In this document: positions 4,129 to 58,072 of the stretch, piece after piece
Numbering within the stretch: the first letter of the stretch is position 1
How the letters are laid out: every line of letters begins with the position of its first letter
NCBI RefSeq assembly: GCF_026427715.1
Contig: NZ_CP107558.1
Location: 595,001-659,000, forward strand
DNA: 64,000 nucleotides
Direction: 5' to 3'
Source of the DNA: Methylocystis sp. MJC1
GTDB taxonomy: Bacteria > Pseudomonadota > Alphaproteobacteria > Rhizobiales > Beijerinckiaceae
Position numbers and translations under genes: made by a program
Notes under the pieces: generated by a model
Seen by the model: the letters and a program-made list of their open reading frames with translations, nothing else
What the model was told of the DNA's origin: nothing
The model's database searches: none

Positions 4129-7100
4129 ATGAGCAAGGGTCTTTCCCGCAAATACCGTGGTCCCGATTACGATGCGCGCGACGCCGCTCGCGCTGAGGCG
4201 CGCCGTTCGGGAAAAAGCCTCGGCGACTGGCTCGACGACGCGATCCGGGAGCCCGCCCAGGATGACGACGAGAACGAACTCGATTCGGACGAGGGCGATC
4301 GTCTGGAGGAAATCACTCGCCGCCTCGCCCGCCCGAGCGGCGAGCGCCGTCGTGAACGCGACGATTTCCGTCAGCCGCGTCGTTGGCGGGACGACGTCGA
4401 TGATATGCGCGCTTCCTCTCGACGGCGTCGAGAAGACGCCTTCGAGGAGGATGAGGAACGCGCGCCCCGGGAACGCGACGGCGTTGCATCCCGTGAGCGC
4501 CTTGAGCGGGAACCGGTCGGGCGGCGGCCGCGCGACGAGCGGCGCTTGGATGCGGAGGCCATCGTCGCCGAGGCGACGGAGGTGGTCGAGCGCCGCGTCG
4601 CGGCCAGCGAGCGCCACGCGGCGCGCGCCTTCGAAAACCTCGCCGATCTGATCAAGCGCGGCCAGCGCAGCGGCGAAAGCGTCGCGATCAAGCGTGCGGT
4701 TTCCGCTTTCGCTGAACGCGCCGACGCCAGCGAGCGTCAGACCGCGCGCGCTTTGAAGAATCTCACGGGCATGCTGGAGCAGCATCAGCGTGGGCGCGAA
4801 ACCGCGGAGGAAGGGCTTGCCTATCTTGCCGAACGACTCGGACGCATCGAGTCGCGGCTTGCCGAGCAGCCCTCTTCGAATGTGAGCGTGCGGCCGATCC
4901 GCTCGGCCTTGGCGCGGCTGGAATCGCGGCTCGATCGTCTGGCGAGCCCCGAACGCGACGCGGATGTCGAAGCGGCGTTGAGCGGCCTGGATCGCCGCCT
5001 CGACGATATTTCGCGTCGCCTCGAGAACGAGCAAGCGGCGCCTGCCGCGCCGGCGGCAAACGCCGCGATGAGCGGCGCTAGTTCCGCCGCCTTGGAGCAG
5101 GGTCTGCGCTCGGGTCAGCAACTTCCCCGCCGGCCCCTCGTCGACGCCATCGCCGAGATTACACAGCGCCAGCGCGTCCTCGACGAGTCCGTCGCGCCGC
5201 CCGCGCCCCCGGCGCCGGCTCCCGCGATGGAGCTTTGGGAAGGCGAACCGCCCGCCAAGCGCTTCGCCGCGCTGACCGCCTCGCTCGAAACCCTGTTGCA
5301 GCAAATGGAAAGCCTTCGCCAGCAGGGCGGAGAGCGCGCCGACCAGCAGCTGGTGACGATGCGGCAGGTCGAGGGGCTGCGCCGCGAAATCGAGGAAATG
5401 TCGCGGGCCGTCGGCGATCTCGCGCCGCGCGCCTCCGTCGCCGCCGTCGAGGCGGCGCTGCGCGATCTTTCGCGCCGCATCGAGACGCAGCGGGATCGCG
5501 GCGTCGCAGAGGACCTTCTGGCGCCGGCCGAGCGGATCGCGGGAGAGCTGCGGTCCGTCGTGAAGGAGCTCGATCCGAGCCCGATCCTGCGCAGCCTCGA
5601 CGCGGACATTCAGGCGATTGGCCGTCGGCTCGACGCCATGCAGCAGCCCGACGCCGCCGACATGGCGGCGATCCATCAGCTTTCGGCGCAAGCGCGTGAG
5701 ATCAAGGACCAGCTTGCCGCCATGGCGGCGCGGCCGCTGCCGCTCGAAAAGCTCGAAACCCGGCTTTTCGATCTGACACAGCGCGTCGACGGGCTGGCGC
5801 ATGCGAGCGCTGGTCCGGCGCAAGCCGCCGCCGCCCTGGACATGGGCGAATTGGTGCGGTCGATCCGCTCGATCGTCGCTTCGGAAACCAGCACGAGCTT
5901 CGAGACCTTCAACAGCCGTCTCGAATATCTCGCGGGCAAATTCGACGAAGCCGTTCTCAGCGCGGGCGCCAAGCGCTTCGACGAGCTGGGGCAGCGCATC
6001 GATGCGCTCGGCCGTACGCTTGGCGAACGGATTGAAGGCGTCGCCGCTCAAAAGCCCACCGACACAGCGGCGCTCGAGCAGTTGATCGCCAATCTGGGCC
6101 GTAAGGTCGACTCCGTCCTCGACGACCGGCCGCATGCGCCCGGTTTCGAGGAGCTTGGCCGCAAGCTCGAGCGCCTGGAAAAGCGTTTCGATCCGGCGGA
6201 GATGGCGGCGCGTCCCGTCGCCGATCGGCAATTCGCCGAACTGGCGCAACGCATCGACGTCGTGCGCGAAACCGCGGCGCAGAGTCTCGACCGCAGCGCG
6301 CCCGACAATCCTCAGCTGGACGAGATCGCCCAACGTCTCGAGCGCATGCAGAGCGCGCTCGCGCAGCGCGCCGAGGAGTCCTATCGCGTCGAGGCGCAGC
6401 ACAAGGACCTCACGGCGCTGGTCGAGCAGCTCGCCACGCGCATGAATCAGGCGCTCGATCCGCGCGGCGACGCAGAGGCGTTGAAGGCCCTCGAACGCCA
6501 GATCGGCGCCCTGTCGCAGCGCCTCGACCGCAGCGATCGCAACGGCGCGGCGCTAGCGGGCGTCGAAACGCGGATCGCCGCACTCGTCGCGCAGATGGAG
6601 GACACGAAGGCGGCGACGACGCTCGCGGCCGAAGAAGCGGTGCGCCGCGCCACGCAGGATATTCTGCGTCAGGCGAACCCCGCGCCGGGCGCGCTTCGGG
6701 AAGCGCTGGAGCGAGAGCTTTCAGACATCCGCAAGGCGCAGGATGAAGCCGGCGAGCGCACGCATGAGACCTTGCTCGCCGTGCACGAAACGCTGGAGCG
6801 CGTCGTCGATCGTCTGGCGATGTTCGAGGACGAGCTGACCGAAATTCGCGCCGAAGCGCCGACCGCCGCGCAATTCTCCGCCCCCGCCGCATCCCCGCGT
6901 CGCGGCGATGCGCGCGCGCCGGAGCTTGCTGTCGAGCCGCGCTCGGCTCCCCGTGCGGGCTCGGGCGACGACGAAAATCTGATGGATTTGCTGGTGCCGC
7001 CAGGCGCCCCGCGCCCGCCGCGCCGTGAGCCCGGATTTGCGTCGCCCAGCGCCAAGCCGGAGAGGTCCGAGCCGGTTCAGACCGACTTTATCGCGGCCGC

Positions 7101-9623: not shown

Positions 9624-9651
9624 GACGCCGGCGAGTTTCCTCGCCGGCGTC
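9624..9651. terminator. Hairpin between convergent genes, possible bidirectional terminator
   Basis: A perfect 12-bp stem GACGCCGGCGAG with a TTTC loop lies between the convergent orphan gene and the P-type ATPase, overlapping the ATPase stop codon. The flanking T-richness is weak on both strands (GCTTATTTG on the minus side), so efficiency is uncertain. Confidence 0.6.
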
Positions 9652-12600
9652 ACGCCGGCGCATGGCCTGTGGGGCGAGCCTTTTGCTTATGGGGCTTTCG
9701 CGCTGCCGTCGCCTTTTGCAGCTCTGTGACGAGGAAGGGCGCCAGCGCGGCGGCTAGGGCGACGGCGCCATCCATGATGCTCATCGGCGCAACGCCGAGG
9801 AGCCGCCGTATCGGCGGCAACGCCGAGATTGCCGCCTGGGTGACGAGGGAGCCGGCGACGACGCCCATGAGCAGCCGGTTGGGGGGGAGCTCTCTACTGA
9901 AGGCGCCATGCTCCCGCGACCGGCAGGCCAAAGCGTGCAGCAGCTGGGCGGCGACGATGTTGGTGAAGCAGATCGTGCGCGCGCGCGGCGACGCGCCATA
10001 TCTCCAGACGCCGTAGAGATAGGAGCCGAAGGAGGACGCCGTGATCAATCCGGCGTCGCGGCCAAGGGCGGGCGCCGAGCGTGCGTCGATGATATTCTCA
10101 TGCGCCGTCATGGGCGGCGCGCGAAGGACGTCGCTATGCGGCGGCTCGAGGCCTAGCGCGAGGGCCGGCGCGACGTCAGTCACGAGGTTGATCCACAAGA
10201 GCTGGGCCGGCGTCAGCGGCTGTCCGAGGCCCGCAGCCGGCGCGATCAGCATCAGCAGGATCTCGCTCATATTAGTTGCCAGAAGATAACGGATGGCGCG
10301 TCGGATATTGGCGTGCGTTGCGCGCCCCTGTTCGATCGCGGGGATCAGCGACTGAAGCCTGTCGTCCTGCAAGACGATGTGCGCCACGTCGCGCGCCGCC
10401 TCGCTGCCGCTCAATCCCATGGCGACGCCGATATTCGCGGCTTTCAGCGCGGGGCTGTCATTGACCCCGTCGCCCGTCATTGCGACGACTCGTCCCGAGC
10501 GCTGCAAAGCCTCGACGATTTCGAGCTTTTGGCCCGGCGTGACGCGCGCGAAAACATGGGGAGGCTGGCGCTGGTGGTCGGGCGCCGCTTTCAAATCCGC
10601 AATCGCGTCGGAGTCGACGATGCGCAGCTCGCCATTGCCGAGATCGAGGGCGCGCGCAACCGCCTCGGCGGTTTTCCGCTGATCGCCCGTGATCATGACG
10701 GGGCTGACGCCGGCGCGGCGCAAGGTAGCGAGAAGCTCGGCGACGCCGGGACGCAGCGGGTCAGCGAGGCCGATCAGCCCCAGGAATATCAGTGCGCCGG
10801 CTGGCGGCGCGTCGCCTGCGAATTCCTGATAGGCGGCGCCCAGCACGCGCTGGCCCGCGCCAGCGAGCCGGGCGTTTTCCGTCTCGACATCGGCGCGCAG
10901 CGCATTGGTCATCTCGATCGCCTCGCGACTCATCAGGATGCGGTTGCAAAGAGCGAGGACTTCTTCGGGACTTCCCTTGACCGCGGCAATCGTCGTCCCG
11001 CGCGATGTTTTGTGAAGGGTCGTCATGAAGAGCTGACGCTCGGTTCGATAGGAAACGCGCTCGAGCGGATAAGCGCGGCGCAGCTGCGCAACGTCGATGC
11101 CCGCGTCTTCCGAGAATCCGAGCAGCGCCGCCTCCGTCGCGGAAGGCGGTCCATTGCTCATGTGTTCTTCGCCGGGCGTCGGCGCCTCGTTGCACAAGGC
11201 GACGATCTGCGCCAATTTTTCCAACCAGGGAACGGCGTCGAGGCGGATGGGCGCCTTGGAGTCGTCGCATATGCGATCGTCCGCGCTATGATAGACGCGA
11301 CCACCGCAGCTGATCTCGGCGACGGACATTCGGTTGAACGTTAACGTTCCCGTCTTGTCGAGACACACGACCTCGACCGATGCAAGCGTCTCGACCGCGT
11401 CGAGACGGCGGATCAGCACATGGTGGCGGCGCATTTCCCTGACGCCGAGCGCGAGCGTCGTCGTTGCGAGAGTCGGCAGGCCTTCGGGGACGGCGGCGAC
11501 AGCCAGAGCGACAGCGTTTTTCAACGTGGCGAAAAAGCCATAGCCTCGCAATAATCCGACGAAAAAGACGGCGACGCAGGCGCCGCTGGCGATCAAGGTG
11601 AGCTGCCGCCCAAGACGGCCCAACTGCTTCTGCAAAGGGGTTTCCGGCGCATTGGCGAGGGAAAGGAAGCTTTGCAGCCGCCCGATCTCGGTGGCCGCGC
11701 CCGTGGCGACGACCGCCGCCAGCCCGCTGCCGCCCGTGACCGCCGACCCGCGATAGACGATGTTCGTGCGATCCGCGAGCGCGACATCCACACAAAGAGG
11801 CTGCGGCAATTTCTGCACAGGCGCGCTTTCGCCGGTCAGCGTGGCTTCGTTGACCATCAAACCGTCCGCGGCGAGCACCCGCGCATCGGCTGCGATGATA
11901 ACGCCGGGGCGCAGCTCCAGCACATCGCCCGGTACGGCGCTTTCGATGGATATTGTCTGACTTTTTCCCTCTCGGATAACCGGAACGCCGCTGTCGAAAG
12001 GCTGCGAAAGCGCACGCACGGCGCGCTCGGCGCGACTTTCCGTGACAAAGCCGATCCCGGCGTTGAGCGCCACAACCGACAGCACGACCACGGCGTCGGC
12101 GCCGCCGCCGGTAAAAAGAGACAAAGCGGCGGCGCCAATGAGCAGCGCGACGGGGAGGCTCTTGAATTGCTCGAGCAGGATTTCCATCCGGGCGCGGCCG
12201 GGGATGGTCGGGAGCGCGTTTTCCCCGTAACGCCGCAGCCGGCTCTCGAAGGCTTTGATCGACAGCCCTTTCGTAGAGCTGCGCAGTCGCTTCAGCGCTT
12301 CGTCGACCCCTAGCAAATGCCACGGGGCCGGACGCGGCTGTCCGCCCTTGGGCTCGAGCCGACCCGCGCGGTAGCGGGCGAGCGCGTCTTCGATGATGTC
12401 GGTGATCCGCGCATTCGTAAGCTTGGGGTCGAAGATGACGAGCAGCGTTCCCGTTGCGGTGCTGGCGCTTGCCTCCTTGACCGCGCGCCCGCTTCTGAGC
12501 GCGCCTTCCAATGCGCGCTTCAGCTGCTGGCCTCCCTTTAGGCCCGGCACGCGCACTCGGAGGCGCCCCGGCACAACGGCATGGAGGAGGGTCAGTTCGT

Positions 12601-12679
12601 CGTGGCGCAGGGGCGCAAGCGGTTCGGCCGTCAACGTCGGCTTGCCCCGAGGGATTTCTTGACGGCGCCGGACGGCCAA
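9650..12679 (-). CDS. P2-type cation-transporting ATPase with HMA-like N-terminal domain
   Basis: A 1009-residue P-type ATPase. An N-terminal ferredoxin-like domain (about 30-105) begins VPGRLRVRV (36-44) and lacks any CxxC metal site. The actuator loop TLTGES, phosphorylation site DKTGTLT (Asp441) and hinge MTGDGVNDSPALKAA are intact. TM4 reads AAVPEGLP (Glu399), TM5 has ATNMSEI and TM6 has QLLWINLVTD, so the Asn, Glu, Asn and Asp positions of a SERCA/PMR1-like site are kept. That is P2-type, not the CPx signature of P1B heavy-metal pumps, suggesting Ca or Mn, with substrate inferred only. The start is TTG 12679, overlapping the upstream HMA-like gene by 49 bases. Last gene of a three-gene minus-strand operon. 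Confidence 0.88.
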   Translation of the reverse strand: MAVRRRQEIPRGKPTLTAEPLAPLRHDELTLLHAVVPGRLRVRVPGLKGGQQLKRALEGALRSGRAVKEASASTATGTLLVIFDPKLTNARITDIIEDALARYRAGRLEPKGGQPRPAPWHLLGVDEALKRLRSSTKGLSIKAFESRLRRYGENALPTIPGRARMEILLEQFKSLPVALLIGAAALSLFTGGGADAVVVLSVVALNAGIGFVTESRAERAVRALSQPFDSGVPVIREGKSQTISIESAVPGDVLELRPGVIIAADARVLAADGLMVNEATLTGESAPVQKLPQPLCVDVALADRTNIVYRGSAVTGGSGLAAVVATGAATEIGRLQSFLSLANAPETPLQKQLGRLGRQLTLIASGACVAVFFVGLLRGYGFFATLKNAVALAVAAVPEGLPTLATTTLALGVREMRRHHVLIRRLDAVETLASVEVVCLDKTGTLTFNRMSVAEISCGGRVYHSADDRICDDSKAPIRLDAVPWLEKLAQIVALCNEAPTPGEEHMSNGPPSATEAALLGFSEDAGIDVAQLRRAYPLERVSYRTERQLFMTTLHKTSRGTTIAAVKGSPEEVLALCNRILMSREAIEMTNALRADVETENARLAGAGQRVLGAAYQEFAGDAPPAGALIFLGLIGLADPLRPGVAELLATLRRAGVSPVMITGDQRKTAEAVARALDLGNGELRIVDSDAIADLKAAPDHQRQPPHVFARVTPGQKLEIVEALQRSGRVVAMTGDGVNDSPALKAANIGVAMGLSGSEAARDVAHIVLQDDRLQSLIPAIEQGRATHANIRRAIRYLLATNMSEILLMLIAPAAGLGQPLTPAQLLWINLVTDVAPALALGLEPPHSDVLRAPPMTAHENIIDARSAPALGRDAGLITASSFGSYLYGVWRYGASPRARTICFTNIVAAQLLHALACRSREHGAFSRELPPNRLLMGVVAGSLVTQAAISALPPIRRLLGVAPMSIMDGAVALAAALAPFLVTELQKATAARKPHKQKARPTGHAPA

Positions 12680-13122
12680 TCGCGCAGGGCTTCTCCCGCA
12701 TACCAGAGAAGGGTCAGGCCAGGGGGCCCTATATTGCCGCGCGCCAGCTGGGCGATCCCAAAGACAAGCAGCGCCAGAACAACGGAGGCGCGCGCGTCCT
12801 CGCCTGTCAGGCGCGTGAAGGAAGCGCTGATAGCCTCGAGCCGCTCGCGCATTTTTTCGAGATCCAAACCTGCGGCCGGCGCCGAGCCTTTGATTTCGAA
12901 CGGCGCGTCCGCGCCGATCGCGCTCAACGCCTCCGCTACCCTTTCACCCTGCAAGAGAATGCTCGACGTGCTGGCGTTGGCTTTTGCCTCGACGCCCGGA
13001 ATTCGCTCCAGCCATTTCGAAGCATGGGCGAAAAAGCTCCTGTCGCCGCGCCGCTCAGGTATCTTCAATCGAATCCTGGAAGGCGTCTTGTGAACGACAT
13101 AGGCGTCGGGCCTCTCAGCCAT
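12631..13122 (-). CDS. HMA-like protein with two C-terminal membrane helices
   Basis: A 163-residue protein. Residues 8-80 look like a degenerate heavy-metal-associated fold starting HKTPSRIRLKIPERRGDRSFF; no CxxC is present. Two hydrophobic segments follow (about 112-126 and 132-146) joined by LARGN (126-130). The gene at 54621 encodes a clear paralogue sharing TP-x-R-h-R-L, RGDRSFF and LARGN at nearly the same positions. AGGAAGG precedes the ATG at 13122, and the start overlaps the end of the DUF5132-like gene by 8 bases, so translation is probably coupled. Function unknown; likely works with the adjacent ATPase. Confidence 0.8.
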   Translation of the reverse strand: MAERPDAYVVHKTPSRIRLKIPERRGDRSFFAHASKWLERIPGVEAKANASTSSILLQGERVAEALSAIGADAPFEIKGSAPAAGLDLEKMRERLEAISASFTRLTGEDARASVVLALLVFGIAQLARGNIGPPGLTLLWYAGEALRDWPSGAVKKSLGASRR

Positions 13123-13435
13123 GGACCTTCCTCTCAGGCTCGTGAGAGGACTTCGCGCCGAATGGCACGACATGCTCCTCGGCCCCGTCGCCATTGGCTG
13201 CGACGCTCCGCTCTTCTTCGAGCTCGTTCTGAACTTCGGCAACGACGTCGCTCATCGTCTCGGTGATCTCGCCGACGACGCCCCGCGCCCGCTCGAACAA
13301 GCGGAACCCCGCGCGCACCGCGCCTTTGGCGAGGGAATTCGTCTTTCCGTCCTCACGACGCAACAGGGTGGCGGTGGCGGCGCCGGCCGCCCCGGCAGCC
13401 AATGCGAGCATGAGACTGCGACCGATGTGCGCCAT
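13115..13435 (-). CDS. DUF5132-like small membrane-anchored protein
   Basis: A 106-residue protein with one N-terminal hydrophobic segment (RSLMLALAAGAAGAATATLL), then SLAKGAVRAGF, a helix ending in VVAEVQNELEEER, and a His-containing hydrophilic tail. The gene at 55298 encodes a paralogue with the same LAKGA/VAKGA, G-x-x-x-(Y/F)ER and (D)(L/V)VAE-x-x-x-ELE landmarks. GGGAG lies 7 bases before the ATG. It is first in the operon DUF5132-like, HMA-like, ATPase. The family name is from memory and the role is unknown. Confidence 0.72.
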   Translation of the reverse strand: MAHIGRSLMLALAAGAAGAATATLLRREDGKTNSLAKGAVRAGFRLFERARGVVGEITETMSDVVAEVQNELEEERSVAANGDGAEEHVVPFGAKSSHEPERKVHG

Positions 13436-53999: not shown

Positions 54000-54095
54000 T
54001 CGCCCGGATCGGAGGGATGCGCCAAAGAAATGTCATGCAGGTGTAATTTTATCAGGCTAAGTATTTGTACCACCAACACTAAAGTCGGCTGCCAG

Positions 54096-54473
54096 ATGGT
54101 CCTTCACCTGCACCATGTTCCGGGACGACTGCGGGTCTGCCTCGCCAAGCTCATCGGCGACTCGCGCGCGATTATCCCCCTTCATTCGGCGTTGCTTGCC
54201 GTTCCCGGCGTGAGATCGGCTTCGATCAACGCCCACACCGGCAGCGTGACGGTGCTTTATCACCGAAACGACTTCGACCTGGAGGCGTTTTGGGGAACGT
54301 TGCGGCGGCAGGGTTGTCTCAGCGACCCGTCGACCGCCGAGCCCGCCGTTTCATCCAGGCGAGATTCCGTGGCGGCAGGCGCGGCCTCCGCTGTTGGCGA
54401 AGCGCTGGCCTCTGCGGTCGTCAAGCACCTTTTCGACCGTTCGGCGCTCTCGCTGGTCAAATTGCTGGTCTGA
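54096..54473 (+). CDS. HMA-like small protein, arginine-motif type
   Basis: 125 residues from ATG 54096. An HMA-like ferredoxin fold opens HHVPGRLRVCLAKL (7-20) and continues AVPGVRSASINAHTGSVTVLYH, the beta-alpha-beta pattern of heavy-metal domains without CxxC. A hydrophobic Ala-rich end (AAGAASAVGEALASAVVKHLF) may bind membrane. The PGRLRV start matches the N-terminus of the P2-type ATPase at 9650-12679. It begins a second HMA/DUF5132 cluster. No strong ribosome site is seen. Confidence 0.72.
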   Translation: MVLHLHHVPGRLRVCLAKLIGDSRAIIPLHSALLAVPGVRSASINAHTGSVTVLYHRNDFDLEAFWGTLRRQGCLSDPSTAEPAVSSRRDSVAAGAASAVGEALASAVVKHLFDRSALSLVKLLV

Positions 54474-54620
54474 TCGCGAGCAGCTCGATCCTTTGAGATA
54501 AATCGCTCGCCCGGGCGCCCGCGCGCCGCTCTTGAATGCGCGTTTGGCGCAACTATCGTTTCATCGACAGATCGCCTCGCCCGGAGAAGAAGGCGTCGGC
54601 GCCTATTCGGGAGACGCGCC

Positions 54621-55160
54621 ATGACGGACAATCATGGATTTCACGTCGCGCACGCCACGCCTCGGCGGCTACGACTCCAGGCGCCGCACAAACGCGGCGA
54701 TCGTTCATTTTTCCGGTCCGTGCAAGACCAGCTGTCGCAATGGCCGGATGTCGAGCGCGTGGACGTCAATCCGTTTTCCACGAGCGTCGTGATCCATTCT
54801 TCGGACGCCAAAGCGGTAATGAACTTGCTCGAGTCGAGCGGCATGCTGCGGGTGATCGAAGCTCTCGCGCCGGCCCATGAGGCCGAGCTGGAACGCCGCC
54901 CGCCGAAACCAACGCAGGGCAGGCCGGACGCGCAAATCCAGCAATGGAGCCGCGGCCGCGTCAATGTGGCGCGTATCTCGGTTTTTGCCGTTGTGGGGGT
55001 GAGCGTCGCAATCAAGCTGGCGCGCGGCAACAATGTCGCCGCGGCGGCCATGGTGCTGCTCTATGGCGGCCGGGCGGCGCAACGCTGGTTGGGTTCCCGT
55101 CAGGGCGGGAAGCGCGCCGCCGCACCTTTCGTCCGGCCTCTGCTACCATCGGGCGGGTGA
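54621..55160 (+). CDS. HMA-like protein with two C-terminal membrane helices, paralogue of 12631-13122
   Basis: 179 residues. HATPRRLRLQAPHKRGDRSFF (11-31) aligns with the paralogue's HKTPSRIRLKIPERRGDRSFF at the same positions, and LARGN (133-137) again joins two hydrophobic segments (about 118-133 and 139-150). The insert before the membrane part is longer and charged (HEAELERRPPKPTQGRPDAQIQQWSRGR). GGGAG is 7 bases before the ATG. Function unknown. Confidence 0.78.
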   Translation: MTDNHGFHVAHATPRRLRLQAPHKRGDRSFFRSVQDQLSQWPDVERVDVNPFSTSVVIHSSDAKAVMNLLESSGMLRVIEALAPAHEAELERRPPKPTQGRPDAQIQQWSRGRVNVARISVFAVVGVSVAIKLARGNNVAAAAMVLLYGGRAAQRWLGSRQGGKRAAAPFVRPLLPSGG

Positions 55161-55198
55161 GGGAGCAGACTTTGCCGCTTCTGCGGAGTTCCGGCTAA

Positions 55199-55222
55199 CT
55201 CAAAGATTTTGAGAGTATTTTT
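55199..55222 (+). terminator. Weak AT-rich terminator-like hairpin
   Basis: CTCAAA (55199-55204) pairs with TTTGAG (55208-55213) around GAT and is followed by AGTATTTTTTA. Only 6 bp, and it is within the cluster, so it might instead modulate expression of the DUF5132-like gene that follows. Confidence 0.4.
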
Positions 55223-55297
55223 TATACACGGCTTTCCCTTGAAGGCGCGATGCGAATGCGCACATGACCCCCCGATGACACCCTAGAGGAGGACGGC

Positions 55298-55594
55298 ATG
55301 GCCCTGTTCGAAGATCTCATGGAAGAAGCATTGGGACCCGTGGCGATCGGCATTGGGGCGCTTCTCGTCGTTCCGGCGTTGTTCCCCTCGGTCGGGCGCG
55401 CGCTGCGGCCGGTAGCCAAGGGAGCGATCAAAACCGGCATCTCCGTCTATGAGAGGACTGTCTCCACCATAGCCGAGGCGACAGGCGATCTTGTTGCGGA
55501 GGCGCGTTCCGAGCTCGAGAGCGAGTCGCACCAAGTCGCGGGCCCGCAGCGTCACGAGCCGGCTCACGGGCACGCCCACGCGCCGGCCGGCTGA
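55298..55594 (+). CDS. DUF5132-like protein, paralogue of 13115-13435
   Basis: 98 residues: one hydrophobic segment (LGPVAIGIGALLVVPALFPSVG), then ALRPVAKGAIKTGISVYERTVSTIAEATGDLVAEARSELESES and a tail of His/Ala/Pro repeats (GHAHAPAG, HEPAHGH). The VAKGA, (Y/F)ER and DLVAE-x-x-x-ELE landmarks match the 13115 gene. AGAGGAGGACGG precedes the ATG, a strong ribosome site. Last of the second cluster, which has no ATPase. Confidence 0.75.
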   Translation: MALFEDLMEEALGPVAIGIGALLVVPALFPSVGRALRPVAKGAIKTGISVYERTVSTIAEATGDLVAEARSELESESHQVAGPQRHEPAHGHAHAPAG

Positions 55595-55655: not shown

Positions 55656-56741
55656 TTACATCCGCGCGACGACGACGAGACGGCGCACGTCGCCGCGCTT
55701 ATAGGCCTGTAGAAAAGCGTTGTAGTCTCGGAAGGAGACGCAGCCATTCGAGTCGCCGTTTGGACCCAGCATGAAGGTATGGGCAAGGAGACCGGCGCGC
55801 CCATAGATGTTGTTTCCGCCGACGGGCGTGAGCCGAAGCGCCTCCACGCCGTGGAACAACGCCTCGCGCGGCGAAAGGGCGTAGATGCTCGGCGGGGTCG
55901 GGCCCTTCATCCGAATATGCACAAATCTCGGGTCGTCGAGATGCTGGCCGAGGCCGGAATGCGCCTCCAGCTTGGTCCCGTCCGGCATGTAAACCGTGTG
56001 GGCGGAAATGTCGTAGACCGCCGTGCCGGCGCCGGGGCGAGCCGCCGCGGTCGATTGAGCGGGGACGGAGGGCGCGACCGCGCTGGTCAGGCCGCCAAAG
56101 AGGCCGCCGGTCGTTTCCTGGGGAGCATAGGCTAAAGCCTGGGTCTGCCCCGGAGCGGCGACCGCCTGCTGCTGTCGGCGCGCGCCGCGGCCCAAGGCGG
56201 GCTGGGGCTGGGCAGCCTGCTGCTGCTCGGCGCCGGCGCCGCCGAAAACCTTTTCGAAGAAGCTGCGGTTGTCCGCCGGCGCGGGCGCCGGCTCGCTCGG
56301 CAGCGCCGCTTGGCGCATGGGCGCCGGCTCGGACGCGTGGCTCATGGAATTTTTTAGCTCGGCCGGGCGACGCGGCGGCAATGGCGCGCCCTCTTCCTCG
56401 GCGCCCTGGGCTATGTCGGAGGGCGTCGGCTCGACGTTGTCACGAGGCGCGGCCGACTCGATCTTGGCGTCAAGCGCGGCGGACTGTTCCAGCGCGGGCG
56501 CCGTCGCCGTGGCGCTGCGCGCCCAGGGGCCGAGCCCCACCACCATTGGGCCATAGGGATTGGGGCCGGGCGTCGGCTGCGCGGCCTCAGCGAGGACCGG
56601 GGCGGGCGTCGGCCGCTGCGGAAGTTCATGCCAAGCGGCGAAAAAGCCCGCGGACAGCGCGCCCGCGCCCAGCACCGTATAAGCGAGCGGCCGGCCATGG
56701 TCGCGTGACAACATGCCATGTAGCGTATGGGTTTTCTTCAA
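55656..56741 (-). CDS. DUF2778/Tlde1-like L,D-transpeptidase-fold protein, copy A
   Basis: 361 residues. An N-terminal membrane anchor (AYTVLGAGALSAGFFAAW), a long Pro/Ala/Gln-rich linker, and a C-terminal DUF2778 domain: ISAHTVYMPDGTKLEAHSGLGQHLDDPRFVHI, PSIYALSPREALFHGVEALRLTPV, and AHTFMLGPNGDSNGCVSFRDYNAFL with the His-Cys catalytic pair of L,D-transpeptidase-fold enzymes. Tlde1 effectors cleave or exchange peptidoglycan stems; here it may be a resident wall enzyme. The start is a TTG at 56741 with GGGGG nearby; an ATG at 56714 is an alternative. Confidence 0.82.
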   Translation of the reverse strand: MKKTHTLHGMLSRDHGRPLAYTVLGAGALSAGFFAAWHELPQRPTPAPVLAEAAQPTPGPNPYGPMVVGLGPWARSATATAPALEQSAALDAKIESAAPRDNVEPTPSDIAQGAEEEGAPLPPRRPAELKNSMSHASEPAPMRQAALPSEPAPAPADNRSFFEKVFGGAGAEQQQAAQPQPALGRGARRQQQAVAAPGQTQALAYAPQETTGGLFGGLTSAVAPSVPAQSTAAARPGAGTAVYDISAHTVYMPDGTKLEAHSGLGQHLDDPRFVHIRMKGPTPPSIYALSPREALFHGVEALRLTPVGGNNIYGRAGLLAHTFMLGPNGDSNGCVSFRDYNAFLQAYKRGDVRRLVVVARM

Positions 56742-56977: not shown

Positions 56978-58072
56978 TTAGAGGTGGGAGACCACCGCGA
57001 GGCGCCGGATTTCGCCTCTCTTATAGGCGTTGAGGAAGGCCTCATAGTCGCGGAAGGAGACGCATCCGTTCGAGTCGCCGTTGGGACCGAGCATGTAAGT
57101 ATGCGCCAGCAATCCGGCGCGATTGTAGATCGCCCCGCCGCCGCCCACAGGATTGAGCCGCAGCGCCTCCACGCCATGGAACAGCGCCTCGCGCGGCCTC
57201 AGGTCATAAAGATGCGGCGGAGTCGGCCCCCTCATGCGCAGATGCACATAGCGGGGGTCGTCGAGGTGCTCGCGCAGGCCGGAATGGGCCTCCAGCCGCT
57301 GGCCGCTCGGCATGTAAACCGTGCGGGCGGAAATGTCGTAGACGGCCGTGTAGCGGTCGAAGCGCGCGCTCGGATTCGACGGCGCCACGGCGCTATGCAG
57401 CCCGCCGAAAAGCCCGACCGGATCGGAAGGGTTGGCATAGGCCATGGCCTCGCGGCGATTTGCTGACCCCGGCCCGGCGGCCTGCGGCGCGCCGCCGAAA
57501 AGCCGCTCGAAGAAGCCGCGGTTGTCCGCCGGAGCCGCCGGAACGGCGGTGGCGCCCTCGAGGCGCGATATCCGGCGCGGCGCCGGTTCCTGCCGGGCGG
57601 CGAGAGGTTGCTCCTTCGGCGCCGCCGGCAGCAGCGCGGCCGAGAGCTCCGTCGGCCGATGGGGCGGGGTCGGGACATCCACCGTGACATGGGGAGGCTC
57701 GACGATCGTTGCGACGCCGGCGTTTCTAAGCTCAGAGGGGCGCGCCGGCGGCGTCGGCGGCTCGGGGGTCCTCGCCAAAGGCGCGGGCGTCGCAGCCTCG
57801 GCCTCCGCCACGAAACGATACTGCGGCTTCGAGCGGGCCTCACGCGGCGCGAAGGCGCTCGTCGCATGCGGGCCAATGTCGGAGAGATAAGAGCCGCGCA
57901 GGCCAATATTGTTCACGCCTGCGGCCTCAGCCTCGGGCGCCGGGTCGATGGGCGACTGCGGAAAGAGCAGGGCGCCTGCCAGGAGGCAGATGCTTATCGC
58001 CCCGAGCGCCGGAACGATCCGGCGGAGTTCTCGGGACGAAAAAACGCGAGGATACTGAACCATGTTACGCAT
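56978..58072 (-). CDS. DUF2778/Tlde1-like L,D-transpeptidase-fold protein, copy B
   Basis: 364 residues and a tandem paralogue of the adjacent gene: membrane anchor (IVPALGAISICLLAGALLFP), Pro-rich linker with PPTPPARPSEL and PTPPHRPTEL, and a near-identical C-terminal domain (EAHSGLREHLDDPRYVHLRMRGPTPPHLYDLRPREALFHGVEALRLNPV, AHTYMLGPNGDSNGCVSFRDYEAFL). The two domains are far more alike than the linkers, as expected for a recent duplication of a secreted enzyme. ATG 58072. Confidence 0.83.
   Translation of the reverse strand: MRNMVQYPRVFSSRELRRIVPALGAISICLLAGALLFPQSPIDPAPEAEAAGVNNIGLRGSYLSDIGPHATSAFAPREARSKPQYRFVAEAEAATPAPLARTPEPPTPPARPSELRNAGVATIVEPPHVTVDVPTPPHRPTELSAALLPAAPKEQPLAARQEPAPRRISRLEGATAVPAAPADNRGFFERLFGGAPQAAGPGSANRREAMAYANPSDPVGLFGGLHSAVAPSNPSARFDRYTAVYDISARTVYMPSGQRLEAHSGLREHLDDPRYVHLRMRGPTPPHLYDLRPREALFHGVEALRLNPVGGGGAIYNRAGLLAHTYMLGPNGDSNGCVSFRDYEAFLNAYKRGEIRRLAVVSHL

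Follow-up and report, generated by a model that had tools for sequence, protein, structure and literature searches.

A DUF5132/HMA_2/P2A-type ATPase operon in Methylocystis sp. MJC1 whose helper genes look related to those of fez-like operons

Gene organization of the locus

The stretch of 64,000 nucleotides of the Methylocystis sp. MJC1 genome analysed here (contig NZ_CP107558.1, positions 595,001 to 659,000; hereafter the window, in whose own numbering coordinates are given) contains a minus-strand run of three genes, from 13435 to 9650, encoding head to tail a DUF5132 protein, an HMA_2 protein and a P-type ATPase. An earlier note made from the letters alone had proposed these three open reading frames (ORFs), which we confirmed at the same coordinates, and had suggested that they form a cation or iron handling system related to the Fez proteins that build ferrosomes. 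The host of the operon is likely a methanotroph. The features of the operon are the following.

13115..13435, minus strand: DUF5132 protein of 106 amino acids (PF17195 32.6 bits, cut-off 25; hydropathy; GGGAG-like site 5' of the ATG)
12631..13122, minus strand: HMA_2 gene, 163 amino acids, with an N-terminal HMA-like domain without CxxC and C-terminal hydrophobic helices (PF19991 32.2 bits, cut-off 30)
13066..13083, minus strand: arginine motif PSRIRL, residues 14-19 of the HMA_2 gene product (sequence; strand 16-20 in the model)
9650..12634, minus strand: P2A-type (Ca2+-type) P-type ATPase with an N-terminal HMA_2 domain, 994 amino acids from the TTG at 12634 (Pfam, NCBIfam; SPCA1 and LMCA1 as closest relatives of solved structure; start assigned from the homologue P0002)
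12368..12592, minus strand: N-terminal HMA_2 domain of the ATPase, residues 15-89, with PGRLRV as residues 22-27 (HMA_2 26.6 bits; model; profile match to HMA_2 genes 98.4%)

Both small proteins score over the Pfam cut-offs of the families suggested for them. A single transmembrane stretch is predicted in the DUF5132 protein (residues 7-25); the tail behind it is charged and probably helical, glutamate and alanine making up 30% of the residues after 35. The DUF5132 gene overlaps the HMA_2 gene by 8 bases (13115-13122), as had been noted before, while the overlap of 49 bases described between the HMA_2 gene and the ATPase gene depends on taking the upstream TTG at 12679 as the start and thus reflects which start codon is chosen. 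The more probable start of the ATPase is the TTG at 12634, because the resulting 994 amino acids equal the length of the homologue P0002, whose start also matches, and the overlap with the stop codon of the HMA_2 gene is then 4 bases (12631-12634).

The ATPase is a P2A-type pump of a distinct clade

The ATPase has the Pfam domains Cation_ATPase_N, E1-E2, hydrolase and Cation_ATPase_C, preceded by the N-terminal HMA_2 domain, and its nearest folds are those of SPCA1, LMCA1 and SERCA, so that both the P2 domain set and the fold of P2A Ca2+-ATPases are present. Six of the seven SERCA-site residues are matched, including the Ca2+ ligands of M4, M5 and M6 (E384, N788, E791, N816, T819 and D820, positions assigned via the SERCA numbering). 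At the M8 position of SERCA E908 there is a glutamine, as in 45 of the 78 ordinary P2A pumps described below. Among the NCBIfam rows shown, only the broad family TIGR01494 was over its cut-off, the Ca2+ equivalogs remaining below theirs (TIGR01522, 549.7 against 798.3; TIGR01116, 499.7 against 703.4). Judged from its sequence, the pump of this operon is of the P2A, Ca2+-type class. FezB is a P1B-6 ATPase with an HN motif in TM6, and domains, nearest folds and ligands bear out the earlier statement that the pump is P2-type and not P1B-6.

The pump shares its core fold and its M4-M6 ligands with the P2A Ca2+-ATPases SERCA, SPCA1/PMR1 and LMCA1 but differs from them in its N-terminal HMA_2 domain, in the glutamine mentioned above and in belonging to a separate clade. 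The N-terminal domain scored 26.6 bits in the Pfam scan, below the HMA_2 cut-off of 30, and 30.6 bits when the genome was searched, there "with its neighbours in the frame"; the model gives it strands at 15-18, 24-28, 52-58 and 63-68 and helices at 36-47 and 74-89. Sixteen P2 pumps of this kind (that of the window, P0001-P0006, L013, L019, L020, L023, L024, L117, L119, L122 and L124) were collected, some through the N-terminal region, others through a neighbouring DUF5132 gene or through similarity overall, and were compared with 78 ordinary P2A pumps, a control set and not a survey, drawn from named genomes among the 589 matches listed in a scan with the ATPase as query; among the matches listed, the same scan also gave at least two HMA_2-tagged pumps. 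In a FastTree phylogeny of 892 core columns, from which the N-terminal part had been dropped, a branch with support 100 separated the 16 tagged pumps from the 78 ordinary ones. A profile of the N-terminal domain, itself built with 10 of the 16 tagged pumps, found 16/16 of these and none of the 78 ordinary pumps at E up to 10. Neither DUF5132 (E under 1e-3) nor an HMA_2 gene (E under 0.02) was detected at the 78 ordinary loci, 53 of which have 3 kb on either side of the pump. By these sequence comparisons the HMA_2-tagged P2A pumps are a distinct clade apart from ordinary P2A pumps.

HMA_2 domains carry an arginine strand without CxxC

The pattern P-x-R-h-R-h was confirmed both in the HMA_2 gene product (PSRIRL) and in the ATPase (PGRLRV), neither of which has a CxxC. 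Among 48 collected HMA_2 stretches, 39 carry P-x-R-h-[RK]-h and none a CxxC, which argues that the motif is more than a chance occurrence. A slightly different arginine pattern was present in the first 140 residues of 13 of the 16 HMA_2-tagged P2 pumps and in the first 130 residues of none of the 78 ordinary ones. By sequence or model, these domains have an HMA-like fold from which the metal loop is absent, and their first core strand bears at least two arginines. Foldseek with the model of the HMA_2 gene product returned no match at E up to 0.001; in a second look CopZ-like chains ranked high, mixed with RNA polymerase subunits. NCBIfam returned no family for this protein.

DUF5132, HMA_2 and P-type ATPase genes are conserved neighbours

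DUF5132 is uncommon. It was found in 5 of the 190 class genomes searched, 3 of them with a score over the cut-off; for the family the corresponding figures are 12 of 149 and 10, and for the phylum 6 of 398 and 2, the three genome sets overlapping. Together with the search of the MJC1 genome, these whole-genome PF17195 searches gave 28 distinct places, of which 24 were fetched, four from the phylum search (19.0-24.1 bits) being left out; two of the 24 (G033 and G162, 19.7 bits, frames of 553 and 556 amino acids) were dropped as they did not match our own DUF5132 profile, leaving 22. Neighbours were counted within the fetched stretch. An HMA_2 gene lies near DUF5132 at 19 of the 22 places and a P-type ATPase at 15 (8 P2 and 7 P1B). 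In 12 of the 15 pumps the N-terminus is recognised by our HMA_2-gene profile, the exceptions being those of the window, L109 and L117. The gene company is thus conserved, and neither of the outcomes that the earlier note had set against its own proposal, namely HMA-like proteins unrelated to the Fez/HMA_2 families or genes that are rarely neighbours, occurred.

Several layouts recur. DUF5132, HMA_2 and P2 pump form one run in the window and at a locus of the same genus (L109, which includes 5000 unread bases, only the N-terminal part of its ATPase being readable), with a variant in which the HMA_2 gene is 3' of the pump (L117). In a second layout the P2 pump is followed by an S-adenosylmethionine synthetase, with a DUF5132-HMA_2 pair in the opposite orientation (L013, from the MJC1 genome itself, L019, L020, L023, L119 and L122); the synthetase is a neighbour at 6 of 11 P2 loci and at none of 7 P1B loci. 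In a third, DUF5132 and HMA_2 precede a P1B pump that is followed by EcsC (L108, L110, L111, L115, L118 and L120), EcsC being present in 6/6 loci and DUF445 next in three. The P1B pumps of these loci have SNG in place of the HN motif and represent a further pump type sharing the same helpers. Helpers without a pump are found in a second cluster of the window (54030-55594) and in L114 and L121, from family relatives. Among homologues available as proteins only, pump and DUF5132 share the longest contig size in four cases (28820, 644949, 3907646 and 4076007), which suggests that they lie on one contig.

L013 (7947-13163, about 2.066-2.071 Mb of G000:C1) is a third MJC1 cluster, in which an HMA_2-tagged P2 pump is followed by a divergent second copy of the S-adenosylmethionine synthetase gene, of which the genome has two, and by a convergent HMA_2-DUF5132 pair. 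A plasmid-borne version was observed on pMVF16-1 of Microvirga sp. VF16 (L124, 6921-13727), a stretch without annotated features that contains two DUF5132 genes, an HMA_2-tagged P2 pump, two HMA_2 genes and DUF445. DUF5132 also occurs as a solo gene, with neither pump nor HMA_2 gene, at L014, L113 and L116, and at L014 (7088-7363, plus strand) it is near a convergent ORF that by eye is a PstB-like ATPase of a phosphate ABC (ATP-binding cassette) transporter.

In open-licence full texts we found no literature on DUF5132, no paper describing this DUF5132/HMA_2/P2A pump arrangement, no relevant paper on HMA_2 or on DUF445/EcsC with P-type ATPases, and none joining ferrosome, calcium, P-type ATPase and organelle. 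For the PF19991 and PF17195 families, we describe here an HMA_2 domain fused to a P2 pump and a conserved gene neighbourhood.

Relation to fez-like operons and to metal efflux platforms

In a genome of the same family (L123), six ORFs in a row encode two HMA_2 proteins, two small unknown proteins, a DUF5132-like protein (16.6 bits, below the cut-off) and a P1B pump whose N-terminus is HMA_2 and which reads LHNGTT where the HN motif belongs; the first HMA_2 gene has a weak DUF4405 match (E 0.018) and feoA is located some 1.7 kb downstream. The DUF5132-like protein has relatives in 8 of 199 genomes of the order (L146-L153), all encoded directly upstream of a P1B pump with HN motif and HMA_2 N-terminus, so that the motif is present in 9/9 of these pumps. 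The HN motif is given as a mark of P1B-6 pumps in PMC9374683, and according to PMC12016538 Rhodopseudomonas palustris CGA009 has six fez genes. On account of the HN motif, the six-ORF layout and the feoA near L123, we call these nine loci fez-like; they would correspond to the published fez operons, and it is with these loci that the comparisons below are made. Near L148 a FeoA-like ORF was recognised by eye (5046-5378, minus strand).

In profile comparisons the DUF5132 proteins of the P2 clusters matched the small protein of the fez-like operons at 94.4% over 58 columns, against 0.2% for the reversed control and at most 0.98% in 40 shuffles that kept the transmembrane and tail blocks; the DUF5132 proteins of the P1B clusters matched it at 69.7%. 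The HMA_2 genes of P2 and fez-like loci matched at 98.4% (in a set that includes the window gene at 54030) and the pump N-termini at 94.4%, while the unrelated pair DUF5132 and HMA_2 gave 0.1%. Judging from these profiles, the helper genes look related to the small genes of fez-like operons. Four results weigh against such a link: the solo DUF5132 proteins matched the fez-like small protein at 2.5%, at E 0.01 our DUF5132 profile detects just three of the nine fez-like loci (L123, L146 and L147), a separate HMA_2 gene is present in 5 of the 9 (L123 and L146-L149) and in none of L150-L153, and the 8 relatives of the L123 protein come from just 3 genera.

With ferrosome operons, as represented by the fez-like loci L123 and L146-L153, the MJC1 operon shares an HMA_2 domain on the pump, adjacent small HMA_2 and one-pass membrane genes and the arginine strand without CxxC, but it has three genes instead of six and a P2A pump instead of an HN-motif P1B pump. 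DUF4405 was not matched by any of its three proteins at E up to 1, FezC of D. magneticus being described as DUF4405-like in PMC10979944. The relation to Fez that the earlier note had proposed stands for the helpers, as judged by profiles against the fez-like loci, and fails for the pump, and the class of the latter led us to reject a textbook ferrosome.

A second likeness is to the PacL/CtpC metal efflux platforms, which according to PMC9374683 and PMC13043812 involve DUF1490, or DUF6110 with P1B-6 pumps. As there, a P-type ATPase gene is accompanied by one for a small protein, here with a single predicted transmembrane stretch and a charged tail, and several sets occur per genome. The cytoplasmic tail of PacL is rich in glutamate and alanine, for which the share in the DUF5132 protein is the 30% given above. 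It differs in having DUF5132, an additional HMA_2 gene and a P2A rather than a P1B pump, and no C-terminal metal-binding motif was recognised by eye in its DUF5132 protein. Neither DUF1490 nor DUF6110 was matched in Pfam by the DUF5132 protein of the window (E up to 1) or by three of its fez-like relatives (E up to 5).

A second helper cluster in the window

The second helper set, at 54030-55594 on the plus strand, consists of two HMA_2 genes and a DUF5132 gene, with no pump found beside it, and L114 and L121 have the genes in this arrangement as well.

54030..54473, plus strand: HMA_2 protein of 147 amino acids, of the sort found in fez-like operons (PF19991 30.6 bits, cut-off 30)
54621..55160, plus strand: HMA_2 protein of 179 amino acids, 28% identical to the product of 12631-13122 (HMA_2 27 bits in the genome search, below the cut-off)
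55298..55594, plus strand: DUF5132 protein of 98 amino acids (PF17195 34.5 bits in the genome search)

Just behind this set there is a gene for a Tlde1-domain protein (55659-56741, minus strand), adjoined by an ORF (56978-58072, minus strand) that is similar to it by eye.

Proposed function of the operon

Relatives of the helpers recur beside P2, P1B and HN-motif P1B pumps. We favour, with a probability of about 0.5, the idea that the pump is a Ca2+-type exporter kept in a membrane assembly by Fez/PacL-like helpers. The operon would encode an ATP-driven exporter of a Ca2+-like cation, most likely Ca2+ itself, with Mn2+ or a lanthanide as other possible cargoes, together with two small membrane helpers. 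The HMA_2 domain of the pump and the HMA_2 gene product may bind each other, or an anionic partner, through the arginine strand, candidate partners being lipid head groups, phosphate or polyphosphate. The DUF5132 protein may oligomerise and gather pump and partner into a membrane patch, by analogy with PacL and CtpC, and the ion would be moved from the cytosol to the periplasm or to the lumen of an internal membrane.

A simpler alternative, which we consider a good deal less probable, is an ordinary Ca2+ exporter whose HMA_2 domain and small genes regulate its amount or activity without any assembly. The P2A core and ligands are indeed ordinary, and solo DUF5132 genes do exist apart from pump and HMA_2 gene, but this explanation leaves unaccounted for the recurrence of the same helpers beside P1B and HN-motif P1B pumps as well as the strict clade of HMA_2-tagged P2 pumps. 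It is also conceivable, if rather unlikely, that the helpers build a compartment as in ferrosomes and that the pump fills phosphate-rich vesicles with Ca2+ or lanthanides, acting as an acidocalcisome or lanthasome pump; a store would result if export ran into a closed internal membrane. The profile link of the helpers to fez-like operons and the direction of transport, export from the cytosol being what vesicle filling needs, agree with such a role, as does the one H+-pyrophosphatase gene of the MJC1 genome. The H+-pyrophosphatase is the marker pump of bacterial acidocalcisomes, and acidocalcisome-like organelles with this enzyme in their membrane are reported in Agrobacterium and Rhodospirillum, both according to PMC3198990, and an acidocalcisome-like compartment holding lanthanides is reported in Methylorubrum (PMC8969499). 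This gene and these compartments are compatible with a Ca2+ or lanthanide store without demonstrating one; the H+-pyrophosphatase gene is far from the operon and common in bacteria, and the occurrence of operon relatives in Microvirga and in a Hyphomonadaceae metagenome-assembled genome indicates that methylotrophy is not the common factor.

Two further explanations appear very improbable. A true ferrosome variant, which would store iron but use a P2 pump instead of FezB, would fit the related helpers and the HMA_2 protein at 54030-54473, but the pump carries P2A Ca2+ ligands rather than P1B motifs and none of the ten P-type ATPases detected in this genome is of the HN type, so that the iron role entertained in the earlier note is left unsupported. 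To a similarly slight degree the HMA_2 domains could be metallochaperones that pass a heavy metal to the pump; the modelled HMA-like fold of the HMA_2 gene product would suit such a task, whereas the P1B metal motifs are absent from the pump, and the lack of CxxC in the collected HMA_2 stretches led us to reject chaperones as the main idea.

Beyond the assembly of a Ca2+-type exporter that we favour, a wider and more speculative proposal, in which we place little confidence, is that DUF5132 and HMA_2, with the HMA_2-tagged pump, form a general compartment or platform kit that has been swapped between pump classes. HN-motif P1B pumps would then serve ferrosome-like iron stores and the P2A clade Ca2+ stores, or lanthanide stores in methylotrophs, and the operon would supply the missing cation pump of bacterial acidocalcisomes or lanthasomes. 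If this is true, ferrosome-like helpers are not specific for iron and one small kit fits pumps of different ions, and both the roles of the small fez- and PacL-like genes and the loading of ion stores become testable through matched operons that differ in their pump. DUF5132 thereby gains a first context and a testable role, and a distinct HMA_2-tagged clade of P2A pumps is marked out.

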